Part shown: positions 2-33,230 of the stretch, one piece after another
Layout: each line of letters opens with the position of its first letter
Position numbering within the stretch: the stretch's first letter is position 1
Assembly (NCBI GenBank): GCA_003170475.1
Contig: PMZI01000026.1
Location: forward strand, 127,173 to 191,172
DNA from: Ignavibacteriota bacterium
Lineage (GTDB): Bacteria; Bacteroidota; Ignavibacteria; UBA10030
Reading direction: 5' to 3'
Length of the DNA: 64,000 nucleotides
Notes under the pieces: generated by a model
Databases searched by the model: none
Told to the model about the DNA's origin: nothing
The model's input: the letters and a program-made list of their open reading frames with translations, nothing else
Program-made: the position numbers and the translations under genes

Positions 2-661
2 AACAAGACGATGGCGATGAAGGATCTTCTGAAGATGCTGTCGGCGAATTTCGAGGGCTTGGAAAAACAACGGCTGCTCTTTGTCAATAAGACTCCGAAG
101 TATGGCAACGATAATGACGAGGCCGATGATATCATGCGCTGGGTGTTCGACGAATTCTATTCCGTTGTCAACGGCCGAACGAACACAAAGGGGGGCGTCT
201 ACCGGATCAATATGCTCCCGACGACCTGTCATGTGTACTTCGGCTCAGTCACCGGTGCGTCTGCAGATGGCCGGAAGGCCTGGATGCCGCTCTCGGAGGG
301 GATTTCTCCTGTGCAAGGAGCTGATAGAAAAGGGCCAACGGCGGTACTCAAGTCCGCCGGAAAAATGGATCATGTCCGAACAGGGGGGACGTTATTGAAC
401 CAGAAGTTCACGCCCCAGCTTCTTGAAGGAGAGAAAGGGATCGAGAATCTCTCCCACCTGGTTCGGTCCTATTTCACGATGGGTGGACATCATATTCAAT
501 TCAATGTTGTCAATGCAGAAACGCTCCGGGCGGCTCAGGTAAATCCGGAACAACATCGCGATCTCATCGTACGAGTTGCGGGGTACAGCGACTATTTCTG
601 TGATCTGAGCGTGGCACTACAGGATGAAATTATCGCGAGAACGGAACATCAGGGGTTCTAA
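2..661 (+). CDS. Glycyl radical enzyme, C-terminal part (PFL2/dehydratase-type)
   Basis: This is the C-terminal end of a pyruvate-formate-lyase-family glycyl radical enzyme; the reading frame is open at the left edge, so the gene begins outside the window. The signature glycyl radical loop RVAGYSDYF lies close to the C-terminus, with the radical glycine 26 residues from the end, followed by QDEIIARTEH. That ending resembles the glycerol/diol dehydratase and PFL2 subgroups more than classical PflB, but the substrate cannot be assigned without the N-terminal half and its active-site cysteine. Such enzymes are cytoplasmic, oxygen-sensitive and need a radical SAM activase. No activase gene follows; a response regulator starts 40 bases downstream. 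Family is certain, substrate unknown. Confidence 0.9.
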   Translation, partial: NKTMAMKDLLKMLSANFEGLEKQRLLFVNKTPKYGNDNDEADDIMRWVFDEFYSVVNGRTNTKGGVYRINMLPTTCHVYFGSVTGASADGRKAWMPLSEGISPVQGADRKGPTAVLKSAGKMDHVRTGGTLLNQKFTPQLLEGEKGIENLSHLVRSYFTMGGHHIQFNVVNAETLRAAQVNPEQHRDLIVRVAGYSDYFCDLSVALQDEIIARTEHQGF

Positions 662-6005: not shown

Positions 6006-7520
6006 ATGGCGAAACGACGCGCTTTTGCTCTCGCGCTGGCGCTGATCGTACCCTGGTGTGCGGCAGATGCGCAACAAAATTCTCCGGCCATCGACCGGCA
6101 GCCCGCTGTCGCGGGGCAATTCTATCCTGGAGACGCGGGGGAACTGCGCTCGATGCTCAAAGACCTCTTCTCCCGCGCCGTGCCCTCAAAAGAGATTGAA
6201 AACATCGCGGCGGTGATCTCGCCGCATGCCGGCTATGTCTTTTCCGGCGGCGTTGCCGCGTCGGTTTTCAGTCAGCTCGATCCCCAAAGGCGATATGACA
6301 ATGTCTTTATTCTCGGCCCGAGCCATCATGTCGGATTTGAAGGAGCTTCGGTCTATACCGCGGGGAATTTCATCACGCCGCTTGGCACAGTTCAGGTAAA
6401 CACACAGCTCGGAAAAGAGCTCATCCGGAAAAGTAAGACATTTGTTTCGCGCACCGATGCTCACCTCTCTGAACACAGCGTGGAGGTGCAGATTCCGTTC
6501 CTGCAGTACCGATATGGAAAGAACTGTTTGATCGTGCCTATCGTGGTTGGTGCGGGATTTCCCGCGACGCTGAGGGACATCGCTGCAGTCCTTCGGCCCT
6601 ACTTCAACGATCGCAATCTCTTCGTTATCAGTTCTGATTTCTCTCATTATCCGCCCTACGCCGATGCCATCAAAGCTGACAAGGCGACTGCCGATGCCAT
6701 CGTGTCGCGATCGCCCGATGCTCTCCTGCGAGTCATGAAATCAAACGCAGAGGCAGGGATCCCCAATATGGCAACGAGTTTGTGTGGATGGCCCTGCGTG
6801 TTGACGTTGTTGTACATGATTCAAGATGATCCTCATATCCATGTGCAACTCATTGACTACAAGAATTCAGGTGACGCATCCGTGGGGCAGAAGGATCAGG
6901 TGGTCGGATACTGTGCCATGGTCGTTTCCCGAACTCTCGAACAGAAAAAGGAATCGTTCAATCTCAACGAAAAAGAGAAGAAGGACCTCCTCATCCTTGC
7001 GAGACAGACGGTTGAACAGCAGGTGAAGCAAAAAAGCGTGGCTGTGGTGGATCCGGCGGCATTCTCGAAATCGCTGGTCACAAATTGCGGGGCGTTCGTG
7101 ACGCTTCGGAAGAACGGTGATCTGCGTGGATGCATCGGGAGGTTCGATGCCAGCGAGCCGCTGTATGCAGTCGTGCAGAAAATGGCCATCGCTTCGTCAT
7201 CGGAAGATTACAGGTTTCCTCCGGTCTCGCCTCAAGAGATCGATCAGATTGAAATCGAGATCTCTGTTCTGACCCCGATGCGTCGGATCACATCCATTGA
7301 CGAGTTTCAACTGGGGAAACACGGCATCTACATCAAAAAAGGTGACCGAGCCGGGACATTTCTTCCGCAAGTGGCGGAAGAGACTCGTTGGACGAAAGAA
7401 GAGTTCCTCGGTCATTGTGCGCAAGACAAGGCGGGAATCGGTTGGAACGGGTGGAAGGATGCCGAGTTGTACGTGTACGAGGCGTTGGTTTTCAGTGAGA
7501 AGGATCTGCATCTTCGTTAG
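6006..7520 (+). CDS. AmmeMemoRadiSam systems B and A fused: secreted Memo-AMMECR1 protein
   Basis: A 504-residue fusion with a Sec-type signal (MAKRRAFALALALIVPWCAADA). Residues 31-310 are a Memo domain: H74 (ISPHAGY), H107/H108 (GPSHHVG), H214 (DFSHYPP) and C260 (LCGWPC) correspond to the conserved metal-pocket residues. Residues about 320-500 are an AMMECR1 domain with the hallmark LRGCIG at 373-378. Both families belong to the AmmeMemoRadiSam system, whose biochemical role is unknown. Human MEMO1 is reported as a metal-binding protein. GAGG 6 bases before ATG supports the start. The gene leads a likely operon with the membrane synthase-like protein and the radical SAM enzyme. Confidence 0.93.
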   Translation: MAKRRAFALALALIVPWCAADAQQNSPAIDRQPAVAGQFYPGDAGELRSMLKDLFSRAVPSKEIENIAAVISPHAGYVFSGGVAASVFSQLDPQRRYDNVFILGPSHHVGFEGASVYTAGNFITPLGTVQVNTQLGKELIRKSKTFVSRTDAHLSEHSVEVQIPFLQYRYGKNCLIVPIVVGAGFPATLRDIAAVLRPYFNDRNLFVISSDFSHYPPYADAIKADKATADAIVSRSPDALLRVMKSNAEAGIPNMATSLCGWPCVLTLLYMIQDDPHIHVQLIDYKNSGDASVGQKDQVVGYCAMVVSRTLEQKKESFNLNEKEKKDLLILARQTVEQQVKQKSVAVVDPAAFSKSLVTNCGAFVTLRKNGDLRGCIGRFDASEPLYAVVQKMAIASSSEDYRFPPVSPQEIDQIEIEISVLTPMRRITSIDEFQLGKHGIYIKKGDRAGTFLPQVAEETRWTKEEFLGHCAQDKAGIGWNGWKDAELYVYEALVFSEKDLHLR

Positions 7521-7565
7521 AGGTGCATAGGTGCTCAAATTCACGAATGCAAATGATACCAGCCT

Positions 7566-9716
7566 ATGAAGACACCGCACCAGGAAATCGAAACTCAGCT
7601 GACGATCTGTCTTGTGGCTGTCGGTCTCACCTCGCTAGTCACGCAAGTAATTCTGCTTCGCGAATTCCTCTCTGTCTTCTTCGGAAACGAACTTGTCATT
7701 GGCGCGCTCCTTGCCAACTGGATGATACTCACCGGAATTGGAGCCTACCTCGGTCGCTACCTGGGCAGGCGCGGAATTGATCTCCTTCCCCCGTTATTGA
7801 TTCTCATTGCAGTTGTGCCTTTTGCAACGGTTCTGGGCTTGCGCCTTCTCAGGAATATCGTGTTCCCGCTTGGAGCTATGGTGGGGATCGTTCCGATTTT
7901 CTGGAGTTCATTTATCCTGCTGATTCCTTATTGCGTACTGTCGGGGGCCTCCTTCTCCGTGCTCGCAAACCTCAATACGAAGACTGAGAAACCGGTCTCG
8001 ATCGGCACCACGTACGCATGGGAATCCATCGGAAGTGTGATCGGCGGTGTCGTCTTCAGTCTTGTCCTCTTCCATTACCTGAACACGTTTCAATGCCTGA
8101 CGGCGTTGATGGCGCTCGATCTGGCTGCAGCTCTCTTCCTTGTGCGTGAACGCCCGACAGCTCGAATCGTCATGTGGGGGTTGGTTATCCTCATGGTTCT
8201 TCCCGTCCTTCTCCTCAATGTCGATGCGTTGACGAAGAGCCGCCTGTTTCCCGAACAGAAAGTCCTCTTCTCCAGGGACACGCCGTATGGGAGTCTCACG
8301 GTGACGAGACAGGCTGAACAAGAGAACTTCTACGAGAATAACGTCCTGCTCGCATCAACAGATGATGCTACGAGCGCCGAAGAATCGGTACACTACGCGA
8401 TGCTGCAACATGGTGCGCCTCAGACGGTGCTCCTGGTCTCTGGCGCGATGACGGGGGCGGCTCGCGAGATATTCAAGCACAAGGTCCATCGACTCGACTA
8501 TGTGGAAGTGAATCCATATTTGGTCGAACTCGCCAAATCGTATTCTCCGGCCCTGAGTGATACGCGGGTCAACACGTTTAATGTCGATCCGAGAATATTT
8601 GTCCGAGAAACACAGGCCATGTACGATGTCGTGCTTCTGAATGTTCCGGAGCCTTCAACGGTTCAGATCAATCGCTACTACACATTGGAATTCTTCGAAG
8701 CGCTGAAGAAGCGAATGAATCCGGAGGGGATTCTCTCCCTCGCACTTCTCCCCTCAACGGAGTATGAAAGTGAAGAAGCGCGCGGCATCAATTCGACGAT
8801 GATGAACACATTGAGGAAGGTTTTCAAGGAGGTTCTTATCGTTCCCGGTTTGCGAACGTATTTCCTGAGCTCCGATGCTAGCCTCGATATCCACATCGGC
8901 AAACTGGTCTTACAGCGAGGTATCGAAAACACCTATGTCAATCAATACTATCTCGATGACGAGATTCTGTCACAACGCAGTGATCTTCTCCAGCGCAGTC
9001 TGATGGCGGATGCCCCTTTGAACAAGGACTTCACTCCGGTCTCTTACTATCGCCAGGTCGCCCATTGGCTCAGCTACTTCCGCAGCAATCTTTGGCTCGT
9101 CGGGGGGATTGCTCTCCTTTTCCTTGTGTTTGCCGGCTTCCAGATGAATTCCGTGAGTGCCGGTATTTTTGCCGGAGGATTTGCGGCCTCGTCGATCGAG
9201 GTTCTCCTCTTGATTGCATTCCAGGTTCTTTATGGATATGTGTATGAGGTTTTGGGCTTGGTCGTGACTGTTTTTATGGCAGGGTTGGCGGTGGGTGCTT
9301 TCTGGAGAATAAAAATTATCCCTCGGGCATCTATTGTCCAGTATGCAATGGTTCAGATGGCAGTTGCGATGTATTGTTTCCTTCTTCCTGTTGTCTTGCT
9401 GATGCTTCAGCAGGTTCAGGGATCAGCAGCCATCGTCCATGGGTCGATTGTTCTCCTTACATTTGCGATTGCGGTTCTGGTTGGAGTAGAATTCTCGGTT
9501 GCAGCGGATCTTCGTCGGGGGCAGCCTCAACGCGTGGCGTCAGAGCTGTATGGAGTAGACTCCATTGGATCTGCTCTCGGTGCATTGCTCGTCGCTGTCG
9601 TGCTAATACCCGTTTTCGGCATCGTAGCCGCGAGTCTCATTCCCGGTATCCTGAGCATGGCGACGGCGCTTGTTGTGCTTGGTAGAAGAAAGTCGATTGA
9701 GCGGAAAATTTTGTAA
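7566..9716 (+). CDS. Membrane protein with spermidine-synthase-like domain
   Basis: A 716-residue protein in three parts: about seven membrane helices (10-235), a soluble Rossmann-type domain resembling polyamine aminopropyltransferase (about 255-460, with LLVSGAMTGAAREI and YVEVNPYLVELA in place of the usual nucleotide-binding loop and acidic residue), and a second membrane block (505-710). Fused MFS/spermidine-synthase proteins are a known but uncharacterised class; polyamine formation cannot be assumed. Its place between the Memo-AMMECR1 and radical SAM genes, 45 bases from one and 9 from the other, indicates it works with that system, perhaps as the membrane partner using S-adenosylmethionine or a derivative. 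That role is inference. Confidence 0.85.
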   Translation: MKTPHQEIETQLTICLVAVGLTSLVTQVILLREFLSVFFGNELVIGALLANWMILTGIGAYLGRYLGRRGIDLLPPLLILIAVVPFATVLGLRLLRNIVFPLGAMVGIVPIFWSSFILLIPYCVLSGASFSVLANLNTKTEKPVSIGTTYAWESIGSVIGGVVFSLVLFHYLNTFQCLTALMALDLAAALFLVRERPTARIVMWGLVILMVLPVLLLNVDALTKSRLFPEQKVLFSRDTPYGSLTVTRQAEQENFYENNVLLASTDDATSAEESVHYAMLQHGAPQTVLLVSGAMTGAAREIFKHKVHRLDYVEVNPYLVELAKSYSPALSDTRVNTFNVDPRIFVRETQAMYDVVLLNVPEPSTVQINRYYTLEFFEALKKRMNPEGILSLALLPSTEYESEEARGINSTMMNTLRKVFKEVLIVPGLRTYFLSSDASLDIHIGKLVLQRGIENTYVNQYYLDDEILSQRSDLLQRSLMADAPLNKDFTPVSYYRQVAHWLSYFRSNLWLVGGIALLFLVFAGFQMNSVSAGIFAGGFAASSIEVLLLIAFQVLYGYVYEVLGLVVTVFMAGLAVGAFWRIKIIPRASIVQYAMVQMAVAMYCFLLPVVLLMLQQVQGSAAIVHGSIVLLTFAIAVLVGVEFSVAADLRRGQPQRVASELYGVDSIGSALGALLVAVVLIPVFGIVAASLIPGILSMATALVVLGRRKSIERKIL

Positions 9717-9725
9717 GGTGATGCG

Positions 9726-10886
9726 ATGGAACCAAACATGATTTCGAAGCGCGAGTTCTTGAGACGATGCGCAATATGCTCTGCGGGGATGGCTTTCGGC
9801 ATGACGGGCCTCGAGCCACTGGCGAAAGGAGCGGTGGGGCTGGCCAGACCGTCACCGATTCCTGATGAACTGTGGAAATGGAGCAAGGAGGCGCTCTTTT
9901 ATAGAAGGGTGGGTGAGGGCCTCGAGTGTCAAAAATGCCCGAATGGCTGCATACTCATGGCAGGTGACACCGGTGTCTGCAGAAATCGTGTCAATCACAA
10001 CGGCAAGATGTATTCCATCGCCTACGGGAATCCCTGCGCAGTGCACGTCGACCCGATTGAAAAGAAACCGTTCTTTCATTTTCTGCCATCGACCCGCGCC
10101 TACTCGGTGGCTGTTGCGGGATGCACGATCTCGTGCCTCAACTGCCAGAATTGGGAGATTTCGCAATTCAGTCCGAAAGAAACGCAGAACTTTGATCTTA
10201 TGCCGGATCAGACAGTAGAAGAATGTTTGAAGAACAACGCCGAGTCGATCGCGTACACCTACTCGGAACCGACCACCTTCTACGAGTATGCATACGATAC
10301 TGCCGTATTGGCGAGAAAGAAGAAAATCCGCAATGTCTGGAAGTCAAACGGCTATATCAACGAACAACCGCTGCGCCATTTGTGCAAGGTCATGGATGCT
10401 GCGAACATCGATCTGAAGAGCTTCGACGATTCAATCTGCATGAAACTCAACGGCGGGCACTCCGAGCCTGTGCTTCGATCTCTCAAGATCTTCAAAGAAG
10501 AGGGAGTCTGGCTCGAAATCACGAATCTTATTATTCCGACGTGGACGGACGACCTGGATATGATCAAACGGATGTGTGATTGGCTTGTCCAGAATGGACT
10601 TCATGAATGCCCCCTGCATTTCAGTCGATTCAATCCCCTCTATAAACTGACGCAGCTTCCTGTCACTCCGGTGTCGACCCTGGAGCGGGCTAGGGAAATT
10701 GCTCTGACGTCAGGGCTCCAGTATGTCTATATCGGAAACGTCCCGGGTCATATGGCAGAGAATACGTACTGCCACAAATGCAGCAAGATGATTATCGAGA
10801 GGCGGGGGTTCAGGATTCTCAACAGCAACCTCGAAAGGGGAAAGTGCAGATTCTGTGGTGCGCGCATTCCAGGTGTCTGGTCTTGA
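9726..10886 (+). CDS. AmmeMemoRadiSam system radical SAM enzyme with Tat-like leader
   Basis: A 386-residue radical SAM protein. The 4Fe-4S cluster motif CxxxCxxC is C133, C137, C140 (CTISCLNC). There is an extra cysteine cluster ahead of it (C68, C71, C75, C85) and two CxxC pairs at the C-terminus (C349/C352, C374/C377), suitable for zinc or a second cluster. The first 40 residues carry a twin-arginine-like leader (KREFLRRC, then a hydrophobic stretch), unusual for a radical SAM enzyme, since these normally act in the cytoplasm. ATG follows the previous stop by 9 bases. The subfamily resembles pyruvate-formate-lyase-activating enzymes but is assigned to AmmeMemoRadiSam by layout and context. 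Reaction unknown. Confidence 0.92.
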   Translation: MEPNMISKREFLRRCAICSAGMAFGMTGLEPLAKGAVGLARPSPIPDELWKWSKEALFYRRVGEGLECQKCPNGCILMAGDTGVCRNRVNHNGKMYSIAYGNPCAVHVDPIEKKPFFHFLPSTRAYSVAVAGCTISCLNCQNWEISQFSPKETQNFDLMPDQTVEECLKNNAESIAYTYSEPTTFYEYAYDTAVLARKKKIRNVWKSNGYINEQPLRHLCKVMDAANIDLKSFDDSICMKLNGGHSEPVLRSLKIFKEEGVWLEITNLIIPTWTDDLDMIKRMCDWLVQNGLHECPLHFSRFNPLYKLTQLPVTPVSTLERAREIALTSGLQYVYIGNVPGHMAENTYCHKCSKMIIERRGFRILNSNLERGKCRFCGARIPGVWS

Positions 10887-11027: not shown

Positions 11028-14000
11028 ATGCACTGTCGCAATCGGTTGAGCAACGCTATCGCTTTCCTGTTCGCAATTTGCATCACGATGTCCATTGCAC
11101 AGGCACGTCAGGCGACGGTGAGGGAATCAAATCAGGTCTTTCGGACATATCCTTTCAGCGATCCTGATCCCATCGCCCGGATGACCAACATTTATCCTTA
11201 CTTTCGGTTTGAGGGATACAGTATTACGCCGGTGGAGAGGAAATGGAAGGTTGTGACTCTTGAAAACCCCTACATCAAGGTGACGATTGCGCCGGAGATT
11301 GGCGGGAAAATTTTGGGCGCGTTCGAAAAATCCACTGGCAAAGCGTTCATCTATACCAACAATGTGGTGAAGTTCCGGGAGATCGCGATGCGGGGTCCCT
11401 GGACCTCGGGAGGTATTGAATTCAACTTTGGCGACATCGGTCACACTCCGGCGACATCATCTCCTGTGGACTATGTGACCCGCACGAACGACGACGGGAG
11501 TGTCAGCTGCATTGTTGGCGCTCTCGATCTTGCGTCCCGGACCGAGTGGAGAGTCGAGATTCGTCTGCCGAAAGACAAAGCGTATTTTCAGACCGAATCG
11601 TTCTGGTACAATCCGACAGATTTCAATACGTCTCTCTATCATTGGATGAATGCGGCCGCGGATGCCAGTCCCGACCTGCAGCTTCTCTATCCAGGATTAG
11701 GTTTCATCGACCATGGCGGTAGAGCGTTTTCGTGGCCGCGTGACAACACTGGGCGTGACATCTCACGCTATGCCAACAATGCGTTCGGACCCGCCAAGTC
11801 GTATCACGTTCTCGGTACATACACGGACACCTACGCTGCATATTATGCGAACAGCGATTTCGGCGTCGTTCACTGGTCTCCCTATACGGACAAGCCGGGG
11901 AAGAAAATCTGGATCTGGGCGCTCTCGAGGGAAGGTGAGATATGGAAGGATCTTCTGACGGATCCGGAGCTTGGAAACGGACAATATGTCGAGATCCAGT
12001 CCGGGTTGCTCTTCAATCAGGCCGCCGCAGGGAGCACAAGAACTCCTTTCAAGCATCAGGCGTTCGCTCCTCTGAGTGAGGAGAACTTTGTTGAAGCATG
12101 GTTTCCGTTCAAAGATATCGGTGGTCTTGTCGAGGCAAATCTCCATGGATCGCTGAATGTTCAGGCAACAGGTGGCATGCTAAGAGTTGCATACTGTCCG
12201 TTGGAGAAAACGACTCAACCTCTCGTCGTCAGTATCGGCGGCAAAGAAGTTTACAGAAGGGAGCTCAATCTTCAGCCGCTGCAGGTATTTGTTGACTCCC
12301 TGACACGCTCAGGTGACGGGGAAATCGAAGTGAGTGTTGGTGATTTGATTTCATTCAAAAGTCAGGAAGCGGCGCGCCGGCAGCTCCAGCGGCCGTTGGA
12401 AACGAACAAAGAATTCGATTGGAACAGTGTTGGTGGATTGTATACAGATGCGGTTGAGCGAGCTCGACAGCGAGACTACAAGGGCGCACTCGAGAAATAC
12501 CTTGCCTGTCTTTTGAAAGACCCGGTCTACACGCCCGCACTTGCGGGGATCGCTGAGATCTACTGCCGTCGAATGGAGTACCAGAAAGCACTGGAATATG
12601 CACGTCGTGCGTTGGCAAATGACGCATACGATCCTGATGCGAATTTCATTTATGGTGTCATCAACAAGAACTTAGGAAGCTTTTACGATGCACTGGATGG
12701 ATTTGGTGCGGCTGCACGATCAATGAAGTATCGATCTGCGGCGAATGCGGAGATGGCGGAGGTCGCCTTTCTTCAGAAGCATTGGCCGGCGGCGGAAGCC
12801 TACGCGTTTCGCGCTCTCGATTATGATCGATCAAATGTGCGGGCCAGCCGGTTGTTGATAGTACTCTATCGGGTTCAAAGAAAGACGGAGTCTGCCAAAG
12901 ATGCGGTTGCGCACTTGAAAGCAATCGATGCGCTGAGCCACCTTGCAGATTTCGAGAGTTCCTTGATCGATCGTGCGAAGGAGAATTTCGACCAGCTCAG
13001 GTCCATGATCAGAAATGAACTTCCGTACGAAAGCTATCTTGAGCTTGCAAGCTACTACTTTGGATTAAAACTCTATGAGGATGCTGCGCTCGTGCTTCAA
13101 CAATCGCCGGCCCATCCGATGGTGTTCTACTGGCTTGCCTATCTGAGCAATGTCACCCATCAACCGCAAAAAGCCGATGATTACCTCGCGAAGGCAATAG
13201 AGCAATCGACGTCGCTCGTGTTTCCATTCCGTCAAGAATCGGCCGAAATCTTCAAGTGGGCAGACACAGCGAAGCCAAACTGGAAAACGAAGTACTACCT
13301 CGCGCTTCTTCTTTGGAGCAAAGACAGAATTGATGCAGCTCGAGATCAGTTTGCTGCCTGTGGCAACGAACCTACGAATGCGTCCTTCTATCTCACGAGA
13401 GGCAATTTTCTGAAAGCCGATCAAAGCGCGGAGGCACTCCGTGACTACAAGAGGGCGCTAGAACTTGGACAGGGCGAGTGGAGAGCGTATCGTGCTCTGA
13501 TTGATTACTATACGGAAGAGATTCATTACACCGAGGCTCTGGAGATCGCCAGGTCTGCGGCCAAGAAGTTTTCATCGAGCTATGTTGCTCTTTTCGATCT
13601 CGCGAGGTCCTACGTGCTCAACCGCCAGTATGCTGCCGGCCTGAAGATCCTCGACACGTTGACAGTGCTGCCGTTCGAGGGTGCGCGCTATACACGGGAG
13701 GTATACCGTCAGGCTTCAGTCCTCGCAGCCGCCGAGGCTATGAAGGCAGGCAACTATGACCGGGCGGCAAAGCTGCTTGAGAAGGCACGTCAGTGGCCGG
13801 AGCGATTGGGAGCCGGCAAGCCGTACGATGTTGACAATCGGCTGGAGGACTATCTCGAGGGATTGTGTTTACAGAAGTCCGGCACAAAAGACAAAGCGAA
13901 GAAACTCTTCGAGCATGTGGTCTCGTTCACAAGCGATCATGGCGCTGATGGTGGTGCTCAGCGATTGTTTGGTGCGTTGGCTGAGCGTGAGCTGGGACAG

Positions 14001-14216
14001 CAGGAGTTCGGGACAAAGTTGAGAGGGGAAATGTCGAGAGATCCACGATCTATTCTCGTTCGATGGTTGGCTGCAGTACTCAATAGGAACACAAGTGATT
14101 TCTCCGTTATCCGCGAAGAGTTGCGTGGACCCGGTGGCATGTCGTTGCTTGGGAGGGCTTCGATAGATCAGGATTTTGCGCTTATCACAGAAGTCCTTTC
14201 ACTGATTGGCTTCTAG
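11028..14216 (+). CDS. DUF5107 protein with tetratricopeptide repeats
   Basis: A 1062-residue secreted protein. A signal peptide (FLFAICITMSIAQA) is followed by a DUF5107 region (about 40-380), related in fold to galactose-mutarotase-like beta-sandwiches, with ENPYIKVTIAPEIGGKI near its start. The second half (about 460-1000) is built of TPR-type helical repeats (for example ARQRDYKGALEKYLACL, YQKALEYARRALAND). DUF5107/TPR proteins are widespread near glycoside hydrolases, and a sugar-binding role is likely but unproven. AGGAGG 8 bases before ATG is an excellent ribosome site. It lies between the AmmeMemoRadiSam genes and GH38, and could belong with either, but more likely begins the glycan locus. 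Confidence 0.85.
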   Translation: MHCRNRLSNAIAFLFAICITMSIAQARQATVRESNQVFRTYPFSDPDPIARMTNIYPYFRFEGYSITPVERKWKVVTLENPYIKVTIAPEIGGKILGAFEKSTGKAFIYTNNVVKFREIAMRGPWTSGGIEFNFGDIGHTPATSSPVDYVTRTNDDGSVSCIVGALDLASRTEWRVEIRLPKDKAYFQTESFWYNPTDFNTSLYHWMNAAADASPDLQLLYPGLGFIDHGGRAFSWPRDNTGRDISRYANNAFGPAKSYHVLGTYTDTYAAYYANSDFGVVHWSPYTDKPGKKIWIWALSREGEIWKDLLTDPELGNGQYVEIQSGLLFNQAAAGSTRTPFKHQAFAPLSEENFVEAWFPFKDIGGLVEANLHGSLNVQATGGMLRVAYCPLEKTTQPLVVSIGGKEVYRRELNLQPLQVFVDSLTRSGDGEIEVSVGDLISFKSQEAARRQLQRPLETNKEFDWNSVGGLYTDAVERARQRDYKGALEKYLACLLKDPVYTPALAGIAEIYCRRMEYQKALEYARRALANDAYDPDANFIYGVINKNLGSFYDALDGFGAAARSMKYRSAANAEMAEVAFLQKHWPAAEAYAFRALDYDRSNVRASRLLIVLYRVQRKTESAKDAVAHLKAIDALSHLADFESSLIDRAKENFDQLRSMIRNELPYESYLELASYYFGLKLYEDAALVLQQSPAHPMVFYWLAYLSNVTHQPQKADDYLAKAIEQSTSLVFPFRQESAEIFKWADTAKPNWKTKYYLALLLWSKDRIDAARDQFAACGNEPTNASFYLTRGNFLKADQSAEALRDYKRALELGQGEWRAYRALIDYYTEEIHYTEALEIARSAAKKFSSSYVALFDLARSYVLNRQYAAGLKILDTLTVLPFEGARYTREVYRQASVLAAAEAMKAGNYDRAAKLLEKARQWPERLGAGKPYDVDNRLEDYLEGLCLQKSGTKDKAKKLFEHVVSFTSDHGADGGAQRLFGALAERELGQQEFGTKLRGEMSRDPRSILVRWLAAVLNRNTSDFSVIREELRGPGGMSLLGRASIDQDFALITEVLSLIGF

Positions 14217-31970: not shown

Positions 31971-33230
31971 ATGATTTCACGGCGCAGTTTTCTCAAGGTC
32001 GGCGGGCTCTCAATCTCAACCGCTGGATTCGTAAGCGAGATACTTACAGGCTCGGCATTTGCTCAGGATGCGAATCTTCAGAACATGGTTTCGGGCGTGA
32101 AGCCGATGGCTCCAGAGGATTATGAGGAGCGGTTGGAGCAGGCGAGAAAAATCATGGCCAAGAATAAGATGGATGCTTTGTTCGTGAGCGGCGGCTCGGA
32201 TCTCGGGTACTTCACGAATGTGAACTGGTTCCTCAGTGAACGGACCTTCGGTGCCCTCATCAATCGGAAGGGAAAGACAATCTGGGTGTGGCCGTCATTT
32301 GAGGCGGAGAGCGCACGGGAAATGATCCCCAAGGATCAGGAACTGCGACCGTGGGAAGAACATGAGAATCCTTTCAAGCTTATCGGTGGCGTCATGAAGG
32401 ATTTGGGGGTTCCCAATGGCAGACTTGGAATCGCCCCTGTGACGAGAAGTTTCATCGTCTTTGGCTTGCGCAAAGATGTTCCGGAGATTGAACTTGTCAA
32501 CGGAGCCGTGGTAACAGAAGGATGCAGAGGAATAAAGTCCCCGAAGGAAATCGGGTACATGGATCTCGCCAACAAAATCACGAAGCTCGCCTACAGGGAG
32601 GGATTCAAACAGCTGAAAGAAGGGATGACCCCGCGGGATCTCTCGAACGTGATCAGCACAGCTCATCAACAGATGGGTGTGAGAGGCAATGGCGGACCCC
32701 AGTTTGGTCCAAGCACTGCATTCCCTCATGGTTCACGGATTCCCCGCACACTTCACGATGGAGATGTTGTCATGGTGGATGGTGGTTGCAGTGTTGAAGG
32801 ATATCAATCAGACGTTACGCGAACGATCGTCTACGGCAAACCCTCAGACAAACAGAAATTGGTCTGGGACATCGTGAAACGCGCTCAGACGGCTGCGTTG
32901 AAGACGGCGCGACCCGGTGTACCTTGCGAGGATGTCGATCATGCCGCAAGGAAGGTCATCGAAGATGCGGGTTACGGGCCGGGATACAAGTACTTCAGTC
33001 ATAGGTTGGGTCATGGCATTGGAATGGATGGTCATGAATTCCCCTACCTCGTGAAAGAGAACAAGCTCAAACTGCAACCTGGGATGACATTCAGTGATGA
33101 GCCCGGAATCTACATTTATGGAGAATTCGGGATGCGTCACGAGGATTGCTTCGTTGTGACCGACGACGGGGCCCGTTTTCTTGGTGGCATGGAAACTACA
33201 GCCATTGACAAGCCGTTCGGCGAGGCGTAG
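31971..33230 (+). CDS. M24 family metallopeptidase (Xaa-Pro aminopeptidase-like), Tat-exported
   Basis: A 419-residue protein with a twin-arginine leader (SRRSFLKVGGLSISTAGFV, ending AFAQ). The creatinase-like N-terminal domain is followed by the pita-bread domain with the full dinuclear metal set D270, D281, H348, E377, E391. It probably removes N-terminal residues next to proline, or cleaves another amide bond, as several M24 relatives act on creatine-like molecules. ATG at 31971 is chosen over the longer frame at 31875 because of the GAGGAG site and the leader. Placement among glycosidases fits degradation of glycoprotein-derived peptides. Confidence 0.88.
   Translation: MISRRSFLKVGGLSISTAGFVSEILTGSAFAQDANLQNMVSGVKPMAPEDYEERLEQARKIMAKNKMDALFVSGGSDLGYFTNVNWFLSERTFGALINRKGKTIWVWPSFEAESAREMIPKDQELRPWEEHENPFKLIGGVMKDLGVPNGRLGIAPVTRSFIVFGLRKDVPEIELVNGAVVTEGCRGIKSPKEIGYMDLANKITKLAYREGFKQLKEGMTPRDLSNVISTAHQQMGVRGNGGPQFGPSTAFPHGSRIPRTLHDGDVVMVDGGCSVEGYQSDVTRTIVYGKPSDKQKLVWDIVKRAQTAALKTARPGVPCEDVDHAARKVIEDAGYGPGYKYFSHRLGHGIGMDGHEFPYLVKENKLKLQPGMTFSDEPGIYIYGEFGMRHEDCFVVTDDGARFLGGMETTAIDKPFGEA

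Follow-up and report, generated by a model that had tools for sequence, protein, structure and literature searches.

The window analysed here is a stretch of 64,000 nt from an Ignavibacteriota bacterium (GCA_003170475.1, contig PMZI01000026.1, positions 127,173–191,172 of the forward strand). Three adjacent genes on the + strand, separated by gaps of 45 and 9 bases, encode a putatively exported Memo–AMMECR1 fusion (AmmeMemoSam B + A; 504 aa, 6006–7520), an MFS-fold membrane protein with an inserted spermidine-synthase-like domain (716 aa, 7566–9716), and an AmmeMemoRadiSam radical SAM (rSAM) enzyme (386 aa, 9726–10886). The same genes, coordinates, families and gaps had been read in a first-pass annotation of the window, and that reading held. 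The accompanying claim that all three products carry export or membrane signals also held, and the rSAM leaders and the fusion signals recur in homologues. Because the leader, the fusion and the gene linkage are found again in dozens of genomes, chance or a one-genome artefact can be rejected.

The first gene begins with a Sec-type signal peptide (MAKRRAFALALALIVPWCAADAQ; 6006–6074, + strand) whose hydrophobic N-terminal core is common to homologous fusions. A signal-like hydrophobic N-terminal segment is present in 67 of the 67 fusions with a readable N-terminus, 33 of which match a loose lipobox-like pattern. The Memo half (residues 31–307; 6099–6923, +) matches PF01875 (E 8e-62) and TIGR04336 (248.1 bits, cut-off 26). 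The AMMECR1 half (residues 328–496; 6996–7493, +), whose conserved LRGCxG motif was located by profile match and fusion alignment, matches PF01871 (E 2e-50) and TIGR04335 (161.2 bits, cut-off 99). The Memo metal-site residues H74, H107, D211, H214 and C260, identified by conservation among the fusions and alignment with MEMO1, are kept in at least 97% of 69 fusions. Together with the intact CxxxCxxC motif of the rSAM enzyme, they argue that both enzymes are active, an inference from sequence alone.

The product of the third gene matches TIGR04337 (AmmeMemoSam_rS) with 331.7 bits against a cut-off of 220. Its radical SAM motif CxxxCxxC (C133, C137 and C140; 10122–10145, +) and the flanking core motifs are invariant across 20 aligned exported members. 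The protein has the leader MISKREFLRRC, and comparison with rSAM relatives marks S-K-R-E-F-L-R-R-C as a Tat-type leader motif (9744–9770, +). A motif count found a [K/R]R-x-F leader in 55 of 55 non-redundant cassette rSAM proteins (48 KR and 7 RR). This count left out frames with a variant core motif or with the motif too close to the start of the frame; where such frames have an N-terminus, inspection by eye showed the leader there too. A few frames (L024/L055, L071 and L123/L161) are truncated. Thus, every cassette-type rSAM with a readable N-terminus bears the leader, whereas it is present in 0 of the 24 leaderless-type TIGR04337 relatives compared. The possibility that the leader is an artefact of the window's single genome was ruled out by this recurrence among relatives.

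The first-pass annotation had described the leader as Tat-like (KREFLRRC), which held as a motif and can be refined. Compared with the Tat consensus (S/T)-R-R-x-F-L-K, the window protein, like its lineage, has KR and not RR, and other members of the clade have RR. The RR leaders come from archaea, from Acidobacteriota, from a Spirochaetes MAG and from one further family within the window's class, so that KR and RR interchange among the cassette rSAMs. All other Tat-type leaders read in the window's own genome are RR. According to a 2019 review (PMC6708511), a single Arg-to-Lys substitution only slows Tat export in most bacteria, thylakoids tolerate KR, and TtrB was the sole known native KR Tat cargo. 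With the TAT model TIGR01409, the rSAM of an Aenigmatarchaeota locus (L150) scores 21.4 bits (cut-off 16.7), and no other cassette rSAM exceeds the cut-off.

In a tree of 74 rSAM proteins, 49 leader-bearing members form one clade (support 100/98), whose members include Ignavibacteriota, Bacteroidota, Acidobacteriota, Myxococcota and Nanobdellota. Another leader-bearing rSAM (L047/L018) branches outside it. This separate lineage has its own MFS/SpdSyn gene (L047, 6988–10469), and Memo/AMMECR1 was not found within the 14 kb fetched for L047. Leaderless counterparts are also encoded on two further contigs of the window's own genome: one contig has a second Memo adjoining a free-standing AMMECR1 gene, and the other has a second TIGR04337 enzyme. 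Across 61 relatives, rSAM matches split into two score groups; in the loci fetched, leader and cassette go with the high scores, and low-scoring members have neither. Replacement of the leaderless system by the cassette was ruled out, as both are present in the own genome.

The multi-helix protein encoded by the second gene exceeds the cut-off of the 'fused MFS/spermidine synthase' family NF037959 (45.2 bits, cut-off 40) and matches Spermine_synth (PF01564, E 4e-18) at residues 275–432. Its AlphaFold model (pLDDT 87, pTM 0.86) shows seven helices, a domain and seven helices, with the last long helix of the model covering two membrane segments of the sequence-based topology. By structure comparison, the membrane part resembles MFS transporters (SLC37A4, Z 29.5 over 351 residues at 3.7 Å; VMAT2, Z 28.5), and the inserted domain resembles SpeE (1uir, Z 27.8). 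This domain (residues 219–505; 8220–9080, +) has seven TM helices on either side and is predicted from them and from the K+R distribution to be extracytoplasmic. Sums of K+R, added by hand from per-residue bins, are 8.7 for predicted inside loops vs 2.7 for outside loops in the N half, and 10.1 vs 1.2 in the C half. Because each half independently favours it, the N-terminus is predicted to lie inside and the domain outside, a topology consistent with the MFS fold and with the seven helices that the model shows on each side of the domain; both topology and fold are model predictions.

Within the domain, the putative nucleoside-pocket residues E272, H276, G293, G297, E314 and D341 are kept. Among 92 homologues, positions 295/296 are mostly hydrophobic or Ser and position 359 is mostly Asn, so that the acid of GGG[DE]G and the catalytic Asp of DxxDP are lost. 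These are what we take to be the ligand-contact positions, assigned from general knowledge of spermidine synthases. A working spermidine synthase was ruled out on the lack of conservation of these two acidic positions, and with the aminopropyltransferase aspartates gone the membrane protein is probably no polyamine synthase, as inferred from sequence alone. The first-pass description of a multi-helix protein with a spermidine-synthase-like domain held, and can be refined to an MFS-fold/SpdSyn fusion with the domain predicted outside. As to the suggestion that the protein may bind SAM or decarboxylated SAM, the nucleoside pocket is kept and the aminopropyltransferase aspartates are lost, and handling of SAM is inferred only.

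In many Bacteroidales loci, a domain of ~110 residues is found on the membrane protein or is encoded by the gene just before it. It has conserved His residues (H34, H76, H90 and H94) and three long predicted helices. Its Pfam matches are all sub-threshold (DUF4405 in 9 of 22 members and prokaryotic b561 in 7), and its structure matches, STEAP1 (Foldseek E 0.5) and the Hyd-1 cytochrome b (Z 5.7), are not significant. A role of this domain as a heme-b electron supply is possible on such sub-threshold similarity and is no more than a lead. The membrane protein of the window lacks the domain. Small genes for His-containing membrane proteins also lie beside the archaeal rSAM in two loci (L103, 11105–11407; L150, 12278–12562); they are not matched by the Bacteroidales domain, and the L150 gene has a weak b561 match.

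The cassette recurs in Ignavibacteriota, Bacteroidota, Acidobacteriota, Spirochaetes, Myxococcota and DPANN-type archaea. With the membrane protein as the sole query, a scan of the genome collection returned 415 relatives, the best 80 loci of which were examined. Both rSAM and Memo/AMMECR1 accompany the membrane gene in 58 of the 80 and at least one of them in 71; the remaining loci comprise 8 with Memo/AMMECR1 only, 5 with rSAM only and 9 with neither. Many of the incomplete loci sit at contig ends, and three (L095, L143 and L151) have no partner gene beside the membrane gene despite room on both sides. Gene order and orientation vary between loci, and the linkage is kept. Among 148 genomes sampled evenly from the phylum, 5 have the membrane gene and all 5 have the trio; the distribution of the cassette in the phylum is patchy yet consistent. 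The membrane gene is thus a recurring partner, and the first-pass proposal that it is an unrecognised fourth part of the system is supported by this linkage. A search of the loci for a further partner gene common to all of them found none; the only additions were tatC, present in some loci, and the small His-rich membrane domain of Bacteroidales.

Genes of the Tat system adjoin some of these cassettes. The tatC gene lies next to the trio in four archaeal loci (L103, L112, L123 and L150), and in one Bacteroidota locus (L083) the only tatC found in the genome precedes the fusion gene by 46 bp. Whole-genome searches found one tatA and one tatC in each of five archaeal genomes (G061–G064 and G066), which are MAGs of unstated completeness; in all five the two genes adjoin each other and lie no more than about 5 kb from the exported rSAM. 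One more archaeal genome has tatC on a different contig, and a whole-genome search of another found no tatC. The fetched Ignavibacteriota loci showed no tat gene next to the cassette; the window's own genome has TatC and other Tat-type leaders.

Four lines of evidence, namely the rSAM leaders, the tat genes in the cassette, the fusion signals and the membrane-protein topology, place the system outside the cytoplasm. The cassette is therefore likely to be an extracytoplasmic AmmeMemoRadiSam paralogue with all of its parts outside, a reading that rests on genomics without a localisation experiment. The first-pass claim that the system works at or outside the inner membrane is supported as far as genomics reaches. 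Of the refuting conditions set with that claim, the two that concern leader and linkage came out on its side: the leader is general among rSAMs of the cassette type, and the membrane gene recurs as a linked partner. In the proposed mechanism, the rSAM enzyme would fold and acquire its Fe-S cluster(s) in the cytoplasm and would then be exported folded via Tat, and the Memo–AMMECR1 fusion would leave through Sec, in many cases as a lipoprotein. The MFS/SpdSyn-like protein, which would stay in the membrane and expose its nucleoside-binding domain to the outside, may pass SAM out or retrieve spent 5'-deoxyadenosine or methylthioadenosine. The rSAM enzyme, together with the metal-binding Memo and AMMECR1 domains, would then modify an unidentified substrate outside the membrane. 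The handling of SAM by the membrane protein is the more doubtful step, and we lean slightly against it, since it is inferred and a transport role is suggested by the fold only; substrate modification and catalysis outside the membrane are likewise inferred. A bolder reading, with as much to be said against it as for it, is that radical-SAM chemistry takes place outside by means of an export-and-supply cassette, in which the MFS/SpdSyn protein would bring SAM across the membrane or clear away 5'-deoxyadenosine and, in some lineages, the heme-b-like domain would supply electrons. To our knowledge, there is no source of SAM or of low-potential electrons outside the membrane, which weighs against outside chemistry. 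A counterpoint to Tat export itself is the KR leader of the window's lineage, set against RR in the other Tat-type leaders read in its own genome; Tat tolerates KR, but such leaders are rare.

One rival explanation has no radical chemistry outside: the rSAM enzyme would act on itself or on a partner while still in the cytoplasm, and its leader would afterwards direct its export or keep it at the membrane. In its favour, most bacterial members have KR rather than RR, SAM is found in the cytoplasm, and proteins exported by Tat mature before they cross the membrane. However, Memo and AMMECR1, the two presumed partners, are on a chain exported by Sec, or as a lipoprotein, which would be unfolded in the cytoplasm, and the soluble domain of the membrane partner is predicted to lie outside; we consider this explanation unlikely. 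Slightly less likely still is that the exported rSAM no longer cleaves SAM and is an Fe-S protein with a structural or electron-transfer role in a Memo–AMMECR1 complex outside the membrane. The need for SAM outside would then vanish, but this is inference only and no result favours it, whereas CxxxCxxC and its flanking core are invariant in 20 members and the TIGR04337 score is far above the cut-off.

It is very unlikely that the MFS/SpdSyn-like gene encodes an ordinary polyamine synthase or exporter that lies close by accident. The domain does have the SpeE fold and a motif resemblance. Yet the linkage recurs although gene order and orientation differ, neither the acid of GGG[DE]G nor the catalytic Asp of DxxDP is conserved, and the domain is predicted outside.

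On the preferred reading, an exported paralogue, the cassette would be a variant of the already known AmmeMemoRadiSam system (TIGR04335/04336/04337; MEMO1 and AMMECR1 in animals). The three families are matched above curated cut-offs with their motifs kept, but the window cassette differs in its fused and secreted Memo and AMMECR1, its Tat-type rSAM leader, its extra MFS/SpdSyn gene, and an rSAM that falls in a separate clade while a leaderless copy coexists in the own genome. The membrane protein shares a multi-helix part and a SpeE-like domain with fused MFS/spermidine synthases (NF037959; PRK03612-like membrane aminopropyltransferases), which it differs from in having 14 helices, a domain between the halves that is predicted outside, no catalytic Asp and linkage to an rSAM cassette. 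The S/T-K-R-x-F-L leader, with a short hydrophobic stretch after it, has a parallel in Tat-exported Fe-S proteins such as TtrB (KR), although the presumed cargo here is a radical SAM enzyme and not a respiratory electron carrier. The nearest solved radical SAM relative by sequence profile is pyruvate formate-lyase activating enzyme (3c8f, 8fo0; E 8e-14), which is cytoplasmic and has neither the leader nor the N- and C-terminal Cys clusters that mark the window's rSAM family. No report of an exported AmmeMemoRadiSam and no paper on an extracytoplasmic radical SAM enzyme was found in the literature searched, which for the former excluded a likely relevant 2019 JBC Memo-superfamily paper, and no source found gives the reaction of the family.

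Their need for SAM and for a strong reductant is why radical SAM enzymes are regarded as cytoplasmic. An exported system, if real, implies either a pool of SAM outside or a transporter for it, and would offer a natural handle on the unknown Memo/AMMECR1 reaction; human MEMO1/AMMECR1-type members are linked to disease and cancer. It would also provide a whole family of natural KR-type Tat leaders, compared with the single one in the 2019 review (PMC6708511). The archaeal genomes in which the sole tatA/tatC found lie beside the cassette make the question of location directly testable.

Several other features flank the cassette. At 11–661 (+) the window contains the C-terminal part of a glycyl-radical enzyme, with the motif RVAGYSDYF read by eye, and a weak activase-like radical SAM match lies just left of the window (own-genome contig C27, 125033). 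Immediately downstream of the cassette is a gene for a DUF5107-TPR protein (11028–14216), which is also the downstream neighbour in six other fetched cassette loci, some of them duplicates of one another. The region 14297–62746 is a large glycoside-hydrolase island (GH38 by Pfam, other members by eye), and several nearby products have RR Tat-type leaders, at 31974, 46923 and 50100.
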